Source of the DNA: Absidia repens
Lineage: Eukaryota; Mucoromycota; Mucoromycetes; Mucorales; Cunninghamellaceae
Assembly: GCA_002105175.1 (NCBI GenBank)
Contig: MCGE01000007.1
Span: forward strand, 1,240,001 to 1,304,000
Direction of reading: 5' to 3'
Length of the DNA stretch: 64,000 nucleotides
Part shown: positions 1 to 7,144 of the stretch, in pieces
How the letters are laid out: every line of letters starts with the position of its first letter
How positions within the stretch are numbered: the stretch's first letter is position 1
The notes under the pieces: generated by a model
What the model saw: only the letters and a program-made list of their open reading frames with translations
Told to the model about the DNA's origin: nothing
Database searches by the model: none
Translations under genes and position numbers: made by a program

Positions 1-274
1 TGGCCACGCCTTATGACACTCGCTCCCCTGACTGGGTTGATTTCTCGGCGCCGTCGACTCCTTCCGAACCAATGTTCTCTCCTATGGGTAATTCTGGTGC
101 TGTCGGTGCTACGATCGGTGCTAGTCCTTGGCGCTCGGATCTCAGTCCGTATGCTTCAAGTCCTGGTTACTCGCCATCCTCTCCATTTGCCGCTTCTCCT
201 GGTTATAGTCCTAGTAGCCCGTAAGTTTAAGAATATATGAAATTTTGCGTGAAAAGGGAAATTGGAATTAAACG

Positions 275-305
<31 letters not shown>

Positions 306-841
306 GTTGTTGTTGTTGCTTGACAATAGTTCATATAGCCCATCGTCACCGTAAGTGCTTTACAAAAAAAAAGTTTCATGCAGGTTTATAGCGAAATGTT
401 TATTGACAAACTTTACTTTATTATTTTCCATTACAGATCGTACAGTCCTAGTTCTCCGTAAGTCCTTCAAGAAACATCCCCGCTGGGGCAAGTATGGCGC
501 TAATATTTTTTATTCTGTTTGTTTGCTATCACTATAGTTCATACAGCCCGTCATCTCCGTACATATATAAAATACGCAAAATAGGTGGTTCTCTATATAA
601 TTATACTAACGATTTGCCTTTTTTCTATCTTTTTCGCATTTTATAGATCGTATAGTCCTAGCTCGCCGTAAGTATCGCATAAAAAAGGAATTGGTTTGGA
701 AATGAATGAGTGAATTGAACTCACCATCTTAATTTTTTTCTTTGTTACATATATAGTTCGTACAGCCCATCATCTCCGTAAGTATCACAAACCTATGGTC
801 AGATATTGGATTTGGTATTTGATGAGTTGACGCTTTCCCAA

Positions 842-887
<46 letters not shown>

Positions 888-2215
888 GTATAGTTCGTAC
901 AGCCCATCATCTCCGTAAGTAACACCGAAAAGCCTGGATCAAAGATTGAAAATTTACGCAGAATATGACTAATGAATTGAACCCCTGATCTTCTATGTTT
1001 TCTTCTACAGCTCGTACAGCCCTTCGTCGCCGTAAGTATTCAAAAAATAAACTAAAATTAAAACAATCACACTTGCATGTTCTAACGCTCTTTTTTTTTT
1101 TTTTGTTTGACATATTATAGATCCTACAGTCCGAGCTCACCGTTCGTATCGAAAAACGCTATGAATAACACCCAGTTACTGATCTTCCTTTTTTTTTTTA
1201 ATTTTCCTTTATTTTTCATTCTCATTCAACAGATCTTATAGTCCAAGCTCGCCGTAAGTGTCATCATTATTTTTCTTACTATATGTATACGTCGTACTCA
1301 CTTTCTCTTTTGCTTCTGATTTCATAGTTCATACAGCCCATCGTCGCCGTAAGTGCCATCTGATTTAAATAATCGAGAAAAGTGTCATAACCTTTTCATT
1401 TCTTCTTTTACTTCTGTAGATCATATAGCCCTTCGTCACCGTAAGTATCCCAAACCGTTACTTCACGAATGGATCATACGTATGAATCATACTGACTTTA
1501 TTGTATACCAACTTTTATACGCGTTTATAGATCATACAGCCCAAGCTCTCCGTAAAAATCGAAATATTCCTTGTAGAAAGTGTGAAAAGTGTTCTAACCA
1601 GTTTTTTTTTTGTTTAACTCTCAAACATAGATCGTATAGCCCAAGCTCCCCGTAAGTACTTGAATGACATATTTGATTTCGTGATGATTGTAAATAATAA
1701 CCGATGTTTTTCTACCTTAATATAGATCTTACAGTCCTTCATCTCCGTATGACCAGAAAATAAGGTTATGTGTATATGGTTCATTTACTAACCATGCTTT
1801 ATTATTACTATTATTATTATTATTATTATTATTATTATGCACAGATCTTATAGTCCAAGCTCTCCGTAAGTAGTCGCTGGAAAAAGGAAAATAAGGTATT
1901 AAATGTATTTTGACTAAACTATACCTGTTTTTTTTTTTTGCGTTTTCTTTCTAAATATTCCTGGAACTCAATAGCTCCTACAGTCCATCCTCGCCGTAAG
2001 TAAAAAAAGATTCATGCAAAACCGGTGGAATATGAATTGACAAATCCGCCTAATGGTGCCTTTTTTTTCCCTTTTCAAAAAATAGTTCCTATAGTCCTAG
2101 TTCGCCGTAAGTATCAAAGCAGGAGAGAATCTTTAGAAGAGTTTTTTAAATTGTTCTAACCCTTTTGCGTAGATCTTACCAAGCTCAAGGCTCAAACACC
2201 AACAAAAAAAATTAG
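1..2215 (+). CDS. rpb1: RNA polymerase II largest subunit RPB1, C-terminal part (5' end outside window)
   Basis: This is the 3' part of the gene for the catalytic subunit of nuclear RNA polymerase II. The reading frame starts at base 3 and runs through a Ser/Pro/Gly-rich linker into the first two YSPSSP heptads (exon ends at 220). Seventeen 21-base exons follow, at 330-350, 437-457, 538-558, 647-667, 757-777, 894-914, 1011-1031, 1121-1141, 1233-1253, 1328-1348, 1420-1440, 1531-1551, 1631-1651, 1726-1746, 1845-1865, 1975-1995 and 2086-2106. The last exon is 2173-2215 and encodes SYQAQGSNTNKKN followed by TAG. Every microexon encodes SYSPSSP, so position 4 of the canonical YSPTSPS repeat is Ser. 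All 18 introns interrupt the Pro-6 codon after its second base. Most donors are GTAAGT; the exceptions are 559 (GTACAT), 1142 (GTTCGT), 1552 (GTAAAA) and 1747 (GTATGA). The identity is certain from the CTD; the start lies off the left edge. Confidence 0.95.
330..2106 (+). other. rpb1: Array of 17 in-phase 21-base microexons encoding CTD heptads
   Basis: Each exon is exactly 21 bases, starts with the last base of a Pro codon and ends with CC. Each is bounded by an AG acceptor and a GT donor. The intervening introns are 66-116 bases, differ in sequence, and often hold T-runs (about 40 T before 883) and a CTAAC/CTGAC-like branch site. Among the exons only 757-777 and 894-914 are identical at DNA level. 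The rest differ only at synonymous positions. Confidence 0.93.
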
Positions 2216-3522: not shown

Positions 3523-4368
3523 CTACACCAGTCGTCCTGTCCGCCGTATTGTGTTCCGTAAAGCAATGGTGGTCATCAACGTCAAAAATCCATTCAAGGC
3601 ACCCCATTCTTGCAACGCTTTCAAAGTATACAATGCCGGTGTGTTGAGGTACGCTTTCGTTTGTACAAACGACTGACACCACGCCGCTACACAGAGGACC
3701 CACAACGCCGTTCGTTCCGTCGACAGTCGGCGCTCTTTCAATGCCAATGCCGCCAAGAAGGCCAATGCCAAATGAAGAACACCCGTGCTCCGAAATTGAT
3801 CTGCCATCAACATGCGGCTGGTCGTCGTCACAGTGATAGAAGACCCACCCGTGTGTTGGAGATTGGTATAACGGGTCACGGAGACATGGGATTTTCCCCA
3901 CAGTTGTCGAGCTACTAGAAGATGCCCAACCACGTTCAGAGCGAGCGGTAAATTGTTATCCCTGAATATCAAGCGACCCACCGAAGCGCTACATGTTCGC
4001 ACATGTCCCCACATGATTTGTCGTAGCGGCAACCGCTGTCCATTGCTGCCGGTTCCTTTGTCGGTTGTTGATGATGATGATGATATTGATGGGTCGTTAG
4101 TCGTATATACAAGCCGTGGTGATGATAGCATTTCGTCCCGTGTAGATAGATTCCTGTTGTGTGTGTTTTTGGAGGAAGAAGGTTGTGTTGAAGTATCATG
4201 TTGTATTGATCGCGGATCAACATCGATAGAAGGAAGAGAAGGTAGTGAGGGTAAAGAGGAAAATATACTGTTGCTGCTGTTGTTGTCTGTCGAATGTTGA
4301 CTATCGCCTAAATTGTGTGATGGTGAGGCAAGAGATGCATTTGACATATCCAAGGGAGAGTCGGTCAT
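3523..4368 (-). CDS. Predicted four-helix membrane protein of unknown function
   Basis: This is a single uninterrupted 281-residue reading frame starting MTDSPLDMSN. The first ~110 residues are Ser/Thr-rich and probably disordered, with a repeated SLPSLPSLP stretch. The remainder has about four hydrophobic segments: LPLALNVVGHLLVA, TGVLHLALAFLAALAL, TALWVLCVAAWC and ALNGFLTLMTTIALR. I do not recognise the family. The size and helix layout loosely recall small ER membrane proteins such as Erg28, but I see no convincing motif match. It is convergent with sen15. No intron is needed. It is probably a real gene because the frame is long, the hydrophobic pattern is regular and the overlapping frames are broken. 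Confidence 0.6.
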   Translation of the reverse strand: MTDSPLDMSNASLASPSHNLGDSQHSTDNNSSNSIFSSLPSLPSLPSIDVDPRSIQHDTSTQPSSSKNTHNRNLSTRDEMLSSPRLVYTTNDPSISSSSSTTDKGTGSNGQRLPLRQIMWGHVRTCSASVGRLIFRDNNLPLALNVVGHLLVARQLWGKSHVSVTRYTNLQHTGGSSITVTTTSRMLMADQFRSTGVLHLALAFLAALALKERRLSTERTALWVLCVAAWCQSFVQTKAYLNTPALYTLKALQEWGALNGFLTLMTTIALRNTIRRTGRLV

Positions 4369-4757
4369 GATATAATATAGTTAAACTGAGAAGAAAGAGA
4401 TGAGCGAGGAAAATGAAAAAAAAATAAAAATAAAAAATCAATAACCGCCGCATGTGATAAATCTGGAAGCGTCCAAAAAACGATACAGCATAATGCAGAA
4501 AGAAAAAAGAAATAAGACTGCTTGGTCTTGTATTTTATTGTCAAAAGAAAAAAAAGAAAAGTAATACAATATGGGAAGAATAAGGTATAAAAGATTTTTT
4601 TTTTTTTCTTTTTCATGAGTGTCAGTTGTATGTATAATAGATTAAATGATGGAGAGAAAGAGGAAGGGGTGCAACAATTTCTGCTGGTACAAATGATGGA
4701 GGATAATATAAAAAAACATGTATGTAAAATAAATAAAATAATAAGATGACAAACTAT
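4369..4757. other. Intergenic, no gene seen
   Basis: This is an A-rich stretch between the end of the Sel1 gene and the start of the four-helix protein gene, both on the minus strand. It should hold the promoter of the latter and the 3' UTR of the former. Short open frames here are lysine/phenylalanine runs from poly-A/T. Confidence 0.55.
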
Positions 4758-7144
4758 CTACGCTGCAGGTGCACTTTGCCCGATGATAAATCCGCTACAT
4801 AGCAAATCTTGTTCGTCCATAGTCGAGGATAGTGAAGACCCTGGCGATAATAAACATACACGTACAAGTAGACGACGTAAACGTTCGTGAGAGCTTCTAC
4901 AGCCAGCTATATAATAATATGAAAGCACAATAGTGTATGTTAGCCACCTATATTATGCTTCATGCCCACACATCGTATTGACACTCCCCCAGCTCCCCCC
5001 GCCTCTATCCCCTTTTGTACCTAAAGAAGCCCGTTCAAACCAAACAGTAGCTTGTTGCAAATCCACAGGACACCCAAGACCGTTTTCATAGCAGTTGGCT
5101 AAATGGAATTGAGCAGAGGTATGATCTTGATTGGCCGCACGCTTGAATAGATTAAATGCCGCTTCTTCATCCTTTTCTATTCCCAAACCTTGTTGCAGAT
5201 GTACGCCCAGCTTGTCCAGAGCTCGTGTATGATTTTGCTTTGCTGCTTGTTGATACCAGAAGACCGCCTGAGATTGATCCTTATCAATCCCAATACCATT
5301 CGCATAACAGAATCCTAGATTACACTGTGCCCATGGGTTGTGTTGCCGTGCAGACTTGTGATACCAGAAAACCGCCTTGACACTGTTCTTTTCGACACCA
5401 AGTCCCTCTTCAAAACAGAATCCCAGAGAGTTTTGAGCCAGTGCATTCCCTTGTTCCGCCGATCGATTGAACCACTTGACAGCTTCGTGTTGGTTTTTGT
5501 CCAAGCCAATGCCATTGCGATAACAGTAGCCAAGAGAGAGTTGGGCTGGAGCATGATTTTCTTCCGCGCTGAGATAGTACCAAAATACCGCTTCCTTTTC
5601 ATCCTTTGGCAAACCAATGCCATTTTGATAGCAGTAGCCCAAAGAGTGATAGGCAAAAATATTCCCCCGTTCCGCTGAGCGCCGATACCACTTGACTGCC
5701 TCCGCTTGATCCTGTTCGACACCAATGGCGTTTTGGTAACAAAATCCCAGATTATGTTGTGCCCGAGCATGTCCTTGCAAAGCTGCCTTGCGATACCAGT
5801 AAGCGCCCAGTCGATCATCCTTGTCCACACCAATGCCATTTTGATAGCAATAACCCAGATTGCATTCAGCCCAGGGGTATCCTTGTTCTGCCGACCGTTC
5901 ATACCACAGCGCCGCCATCCCAAAGTCTTGTTCAACACCAATCCCATCCTCGTAGCAATACCCCAGTGAGTTTTGTGCAAAAGCGTTGCCTTGTTCAGCA
6001 GAGCAGCGGTACCAGCCCACCGCTTCCACGACATCCTTCTCCAGTCCAATCCCCTCTTCATAGCAGTACCCCACATTGTAGATCGCTACGGTTTCACCCT
6101 GCTCAGCTGCCAGACGGTACCATCGCATAGCCTCCACCTGGTCTTTCGCCACACCAAAACCTTCACCATAACAATATCCGAGAATGCCTTGGCCACGTTC
6201 ATTGCCTTGTTCGGCACTCGCCTTGTACCATTGGAAAGCAAGTTGTTCACTTTTCTCAACACCTAAAGCGAAAAAATAAAAATAAAAAAATAATCATAAG
6301 TCAATTGTAGTTGCCACATTAGAATGATTTTGAGATGTTTCCTACCTATGCCATCGTGATAACATACGCCAAGAGCATACTGACAGGCTGCATCATTGTC
6401 ATTCAATGCACCGTCTTGAATCCATTGAATGGCGGAGACGGATCTTGTAGATGAGATGGGTGAAGAAGGGGGAGACATGTCTGGTAGTGATGATGATGAT
6501 GCTGATGACGATGATGATGCTGATGATGCTGATGATGATGATGATGAAGCGTATGAATCGAGGCGTAATATACACGGAGAGTAAGAGTAATAGCGTCGTA
6601 CACGATCCGCCCATTCTTCTGATTCTGCACGGTCGATCTTGATATTTGGTCTACCATATTTTCGTAAAAACGCCAATCGAGCCATGCCTAATCCATCATG
6701 CTGTTTGGCTGCTTCCAAATAGTAGTATTCAGCCAAGCCAAAATCCTTTTCCAGACCCAAGCCAAATTCATAACAGAAGCCAAGCACCCCGGATGCTTCG
6801 GCAAGCCCCAAAGCCGCTGCTTGTTGGAAAAAGGCAATAGCCAGGGCGGGTTGTTTTTTGGTTTGAGGCATTCGGCCAAAGAGATACTGATTGCCGGTGT
6901 TGAATAGGTGTCTAGGTATATCTTCAGGTTCAATGTTGCTGATGGATAACGAGTTGGAAGAAGAAGAAGAAGAGCGCCGTGAGGGAGTCGGGGTGGTCGG
7001 AGCGGTTGCTTGTGATGTGATTGTGGGTGAAGGTGATTCATTCAGACAAGAAGGGGAAGAATGGAGGTATTTGGGTTGCCATTTCGAAATGACCAGACGA
7101 GATCGTTGTATGATATGAGAAAAAGGTAGGGATGAAGGTGACAT
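4758..7144 (-). CDS. Sel1-like repeat protein
   Basis: This is a 729-residue protein from three exons: 7144-6346, 6262-5021 and 4906-4758. The introns are 83 and 114 bases and their phases close. After a Ser/Thr-rich N-terminus comes an HCP/TPR-like solenoid of about 14 Sel1 repeats of 36 residues. The repeats have the recurrent pattern A-x-(Y/F)-x-LGYCY-x-x-GIG-x-x-KD. Two repeats lie near residues 80-150, and a Ser-rich insert (Ser runs encoded near 6470-6545) separates them from the main array. The last exon adds a basic tail ending in GFIIGQSAPAA. Sel1 repeats are protein-interaction scaffolds in ER-associated degradation, signalling and chitin-synthase regulation. Nothing in the sequence says which applies here. 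The uninterrupted frame ends at 4953, but that tail reads through an intron (donor GTACAA at 5020). Confidence 0.82.

Follow-up and report, generated by a model that had tools for sequence, protein, structure and literature searches.

At the start of a 64,000-nucleotide (nt) window of the Mucorales fungus Absidia repens lies the 3' end of rpb1, the gene that encodes the RNA polymerase II (Pol II) subunit RPB1 and its repetitive C-terminal domain (CTD). The window, by which we mean the whole stretch of DNA analysed, covers bases 1,240,001-1,304,000 of contig C67 in an assembly of 79 contigs and 47,368,516 bases. Its CTD-coding part is divided into 17 consecutive microexons of exactly 21 nt, every one preceded by AG and followed by GT, in a single phase and reading SYSPSSP. 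In 17/17 units the introns interrupt the Pro6 codon after its second base; each microexon opens with the third base of one Pro6 codon and closes with the first two bases of the next, giving the order S7-Y1-S2-P3-S4-S5-P6. The original prediction had described this run of same-phase exons and their split Pro6 codons, and all 17 were reproduced, as were the limits of the array, whose introns run from 221 to 2172.

One heptad per exon at the end of rpb1

The window gene (copy A) starts ~5.2 kb upstream of the window, where exons 1-8 and most of exon 9 are found. The original prediction, made from the window, mentions neither these exons nor the second copy and the frameshift described below. The microexons are its exons 10-26 and account for 357 of ~5,100 coding bases, confined to the 3' end. 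With two further heptads from exon 9, the CTD has 17 heptads from microexons and two from a conventional exon. The features are as follows, in window coordinates.

1..220, + strand, rpb1 exon 9, 3' part: codes for the RPB1 linker and the first heptads, ending GYSPSSP; start of the exon 1,334 bases further upstream, outside the window
330..350, + strand, microexon 1, SYSPSSP
437..457, + strand, microexon 2, SYSPSSP
538..558, + strand, microexon 3, SYSPSSP; donor GTACAT, as in copy B
647..667, + strand, microexon 4, SYSPSSP
757..777, + strand, microexon 5, SYSPSSP; DNA identical to microexon 6
894..914, + strand, microexon 6, SYSPSSP
1011..1031, + strand, microexon 7, SYSPSSP
1121..1141, + strand, microexon 8, SYSPSSP; donor GTTCGT
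1233..1253, + strand, microexon 9, SYSPSSP
1328..1348, + strand, microexon 10, SYSPSSP
1420..1440, + strand, microexon 11, SYSPSSP
1531..1551, + strand, microexon 12, SYSPSSP; donor GTAAAA
1631..1651, + strand, microexon 13, SYSPSSP
1726..1746, + strand, microexon 14, SYSPSSP; donor GTATGA, as in copy B
1845..1865, + strand, microexon 15, SYSPSSP
1975..1995, + strand, microexon 16, SYSPSSP; Thr4 at the same place in copy B
2086..2106, + strand, microexon 17, SYSPSSP
2173..2215, + strand, last exon, 43 nt: non-heptad tail and stop codon
221..2172 (span), + strand, 18 phase-2 array introns of 66-116 nt, bounding and separating the microexons
221-329, 351-436, 458-537, 559-646, 668-756, 778-893, + strand, array introns 1-6
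915-1010, 1032-1120, 1142-1232, 1254-1327, 1349-1419, 1441-1530, + strand, array introns 7-12
1552-1630, 1652-1725, 1747-1844, 1866-1974, 1996-2085, 2107-2172, + strand, array introns 13-18

One array intron holds a run of 39 T at 844-882, whose length is likely to vary between strains.

The pattern AG-N-heptad-CC-GT gave 17 matches in the window and none in 100 dinucleotide-preserving shuffles of it. The same flanked pattern matched 34 times in the whole assembly, 17 times in each of two rpb1 genes (the window gene and copy B on contig C1), and never when read backwards; the absence of matches in the shuffles and for the backward pattern rules out a chance origin. Without the AG and GT flanks the coding pattern gave 35 matches in the assembly, 34 of them the microexons; the extra, unflanked one (C79:1061983) sits, on its strand, in a frame no longer than 38 codons.

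That this is the CTD of RPB1, as originally proposed, is borne out by the heptads together with full-length homology to Pol II. The 1,708-aa protein of copy B is 97% identical to a protein of Chlamydoabsidia padenii over 96% of its length, and 95% identical to one of Halteromyces radiatus, both species being Mucorales of the family Cunninghamellaceae. The remaining PF04998 loci correspond to Pol I (C31), Pol III (C3) and a locus on C59 with 91.6-95.6% DNA identity to that on C31. The original prediction had raised the case of an untranscribed duplicate with an intronless rpb1 elsewhere in the genome. No third or intronless rpb1 was found among the PF04998 matches of the assembly (the best-scoring candidates) or among the pattern matches, which speaks against that case.

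A second copy, and the age and origin of the array

Copy B has an intact frame, and it resembles copy A in having 26 introns and 17 microexons. Of the 1,469 codons compared (exons 1-4 and 6-9), 1,457 encode the same residue in both genes, with nonsynonymous and synonymous divergences (dN and dS) of 0.0044 and 0.545 by NG86 and of 0.0035 and 0.535 by YN00, that is, a dN/dS of ~0.008. In the protein encoded by the microexons, one residue in 119 differs: microexon 16 of copy B reads SYSPTSP, and a pattern restricted to Ser4 finds 16 units there.

The array itself is older than the split between the two present gene copies, as three traits of its sequence indicate. The similarity between microexons of A and B in register exceeds that of any of 20,000 permutations, the class of the position-4 serine codon (AGY or TCN) is shared at 14/17 positions, and the same unusual donors recur in both copies, GTACAT after exon 3 and GTATGA after exon 14. 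The age of the duplication relative to the genera is another matter. In a protein tree built from 14 of 120 listed proteins plus A and B, with the CTD removed and exon 5 of A masked, A groups with B and the two Chlamydoabsidia copies group together; this tree does not demonstrate a gene duplication common to both genera. Part of the neighbourhood of rpb1 is duplicated too (window 3533-4374 against L010, ~70%, in two pieces). The largest subunit of Pol I occurs twice (C31:338273-340320 and C59:4602-6645, the identity given above holding over long compared stretches). The doubled Pol I subunit and the duplicated rpb1 neighbourhood suggest a large or whole-genome duplication. Further along the window, on the minus strand, an open reading frame of 399 aa (4953-6152) has ten Sel1 repeat matches.

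Copy A may be a recently lost gene. Its exon 5, upstream of the window (L009:1753-2066), has 314 nt instead of the 315 of copy B, which shifts the frame. The missing base lies in a run of C, and such runs are a frequent place of assembly errors. The deletion may thus be an assembly error or a recent loss, and in the latter case only the copy on C1 would make RPB1. The two copies differ at 12 amino acids, and there the majority of Chlamydoabsidia and Halteromyces (P0001, P0019 and P0002, in our own reading of the alignment) sides with B at eight, with A at two and is undecided at two, which fits such a loss and leads us to lean towards A as the faster-changing copy. Yet no further frame break was found in the exons of copy A (exon 5 masked), its 17 microexons and their splice sites are all intact, and dN/dS is ~0.008, all of which speaks against such a loss. 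We consider a recent loss of copy A quite possible, while leaning against it. Whatever the status of exon 5 in copy A, the array in copy B is not affected by it.

How did such an array arise? A heptad unit whose Pro6 codon was split by an intron would have been duplicated in tandem along with that intron. This origin had been proposed from the window sequence, and copy B upholds it: its units 6 and 7, neighbours that are alike through both exon and intron, are a direct trace of the tandem duplication of an exon with its intron. The placement of all introns at the same codon position might also bring to mind introner-like mobile elements inserted at every heptad. However, array introns are mostly unlike one another, and a search of the assembly with window 360-2172 (simple repeats and very common words skipped) gave no match outside the two rpb1 genes. 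With nothing similar outside rpb1, we rejected mobile introns, a reading to which we give almost no credence.

The unique introns between heptad units might also persist as repeat breakers, preventing slippage or unequal exchange among units that, without them, would form a 21-bp tandem repeat. We find this doubtful, because duplication of units still occurs (copy B, units 6 and 7), because serine-codon classes out of register at positions 6 and 7 suggest both gain and loss, and because 11 other Mucoromycota models, compared as protein models, carry 19-29 units. Against a tendency to split repeat domains throughout the genome speak the C-terminal repeats of Spt5, the single other domain examined. 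In the unspliced DNA these lie in two long open frames, one of 299 codons with 7 KTP motifs followed by one of 252 codons with 9 [AQP]TP motifs, and are therefore not encoded one repeat per exon.

The array in relatives and the fourth heptad position

The relatives were drawn from 197 non-redundant proteins, obtained from the best 120 of 8,000 scored candidates and the best 120 of 782 matches. In three of the 197 listed proteins the last residue is the Pro6 of a heptad. Two of them are the Chlamydoabsidia proteins, which stop after 10 and 4 units (the latter labelled partial by its source), and the third is P0006, which stops after 24. Such an end is expected if annotation tracked the microexons until it read on into a donor. 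These short protein models make it probable that Chlamydoabsidia, at least, shares the array, and some gene models in this family have probably been cut short. The Halteromyces model looks complete, its 14 units being followed by a tail; in P0012 a short tail follows 25 units.

In Mucorales and other fungi, too, RPB1 ends in tandem heptads. A difference from the known fungal CTDs is that each of 17 heptads is here a separate 21-nt exon. The content of the heptads also differs: the 11 other Mucoromycota models (Mucor, Rhizopus, Phycomyces, Lichtheimia and others) mostly have Thr4, as does the CTD of Mucor, Rhizopus and Phycomyces in particular, whereas position 4 is Ser in 17/17 microexons of copy A and 16/17 of copy B (33/34 together). 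The Absidia branch is mostly Ser4, and P0006 and P0012, its sister group in the protein tree, are about half Thr4 and half Ser4. Thr4 is a known phosphorylation site, and its loss is nearly array-wide. Position 4 uses both AGY and TCN codons, either of which is a single step away from a Thr codon, and on this basis Thr4 was probably replaced more than once.

Splicing of the array and its meaning

Our results point to a CTD whose 17 microexons are normally all spliced in. Introns of 66-116 nt would be removed by intron definition, and the product would be an RPB1 with 19 heptads of the form [SG]YSPxSP followed by a short tail. We consider this constitutive inclusion probable, with some confidence. 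The length of array introns does not differ from that of other rpb1 introns (p = 0.21), but their donors are stronger by sequence: GTAAGT is found in 26/36 array introns and in 5/16 others (p = 0.013). An exon ending in CC lacks the pairing with U1 RNA that the usual AG provides, and a strong intronic donor may compensate for this. The branch site is perhaps stronger as well. CTAAC occurs in 11/36 array introns, for a shuffle mean of 1.8, and in none of the 16 others (p = 0.012), and ACTNA in 24/36 array introns (shuffle mean 10.1). The looser [CT]TNA[CT] occurs in 35/36, a number barely separated from its shuffle mean of 31.5. Donors kept strong while the rest of the intron diverged would point to selection for efficient splicing. 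Taken with a single difference in 119 residues at a dS of 0.54, the stronger donors make the sequence lean towards constitutive inclusion. The array, present before the copies diverged, would have been kept by selection on both the protein and the splice signals.

Several points weigh against this reading. CTNAC is equally common in the two sets (18/36 array and 8/16 other introns) and exceeds its shuffles in both (means of 6.1 and 3.0), which means that array branch sites are not clearly stronger. Ten of the 36 array donors differ from GTAAGT, and those after exons 3 and 14 are unusual yet identical in the two copies, a possible sign of regulated inclusion. As the array introns are related by descent, the tests on splice signals treat non-independent units. 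The frame of copy A is not intact, the relatives were compared as proteins alone, and P0019, among the three proteins that end at Pro6, is labelled partial by its source. Finally, both constitutive inclusion and selection on the splice signals are predictions from the DNA sequence.

The alternative put forward in the original prediction is that CTD length is regulated, with symmetric microexons skipped to yield RPB1 isoforms whose number of heptads changes with conditions. As originally pointed out, all microexons have 21 nt and the same phase; any skip keeps the frame and costs one heptad per exon. The non-consensus donors conserved after exons 3 and 14 could serve such a regulation. We also found 12 inverted pairs between introns, many of them A- or T-rich, as candidates for a long-range pairing that could steer exon choice. 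Nevertheless, array donors are on the whole stronger than those of the other introns of the gene, and the heptads are intact in both copies. Regulated length appears quite unlikely.

Even with constitutive inclusion, the full tail needs the correct removal of 18 closely packed introns. The amount and length of RPB1 would depend heavily on accurate splicing, with an effect, we infer, on its dose. Retention of an intron, which the original prediction did not take into account, brings a stop directly after Pro6 for 15/18 introns of copy A and 14/18 of copy B (29/36), because CC followed by GTAAG reads Pro-stop. Failed intron removal would thus mostly end translation at a heptad boundary, and the skipping of whole exons would shorten the CTD in frame. 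The cell might exploit the first outcome as a feedback, if intron retention cut RPB1 short at the boundary of a heptad and exposed its mRNA to decay, with the level of Pol II tracking splicing capacity. The frequent stops after Pro6 and the 26 introns of the gene are in agreement with this idea, and nonsense-mediated decay is marked by a UPF1 zinc-binding domain encoded in the assembly. In human cells, according to the abstract of PMC6735682, loss of XAB2 makes POLR2A retain introns and depletes Pol II, and POLR2A also drops under a splicing inhibitor. The immediate stop is nonetheless an automatic result of GTAAG after CC and requires no selection, and we hold the feedback to be doubtful. A broader version, in which removal of both flanking introns is the condition for adding a heptad and the cell uses this as a splicing gauge that tunes the amount of polymerase, the length of its CTD or both, seems rather unlikely on the sequence evidence.

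Elements of this architecture have precedents. Fibrillar collagens have 54-bp exons, and repeat proteins more generally show tandemly duplicated exon arrays. The rpb1 array resembles those of collagens in an exon length tied to the protein repeat, a shared phase and an origin by duplication of units, and differs in its much shorter exons of 21 nt, one heptad each, in RPB1. The micro-exon genes (MEGs) of schistosomes, as described in PMC4350168, have a coding region made mostly of very small symmetrical exons and thereby open to alternative splicing, and products found in secretions or glands that vary by this means. Like them, the CTD array consists of many very small symmetrical exons (17 of 21 nt, in one phase). 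Unlike them, it belongs to a core polymerase subunit and has microexons of uniform length and sequence type, and its alternative splicing is a hypothesis. The human XAB2 case resembles ours in that the RPB1 message is a place where intron retention would matter, and differs in that its abstract (PMC6735682) mentions no CTD microexons, whereas here 18 introns lie in the CTD-coding part. No description of a CTD with one heptad per exon was found in the titles and abstract openings of the open-access papers listed, such as the first 20 of 195, and the words intron, exon, zygomyc, Rhizopus and Mucor are absent from the main text of an article on CTD evolution (PMC4362643). Many-microexon architecture is thus known from schistosomes, and its use for a CTD, with one heptad per exon, appears to be new, within the portions of the literature just named.

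The array shows a route by which the repeat number and content of a CTD can evolve, including the change from Thr4 to Ser4. The CTD recruits the factors that splice introns, and here it would itself be assembled heptad by heptad through splicing, which makes this gene a natural place to test how CTD and splicing are coupled. Its length could be readable from RNA and might be altered by splicing. If the array did act as a splicing gauge in this branch of the Cunninghamellaceae, weak splicing would shorten the CTD or stop RPB1 at a heptad boundary.
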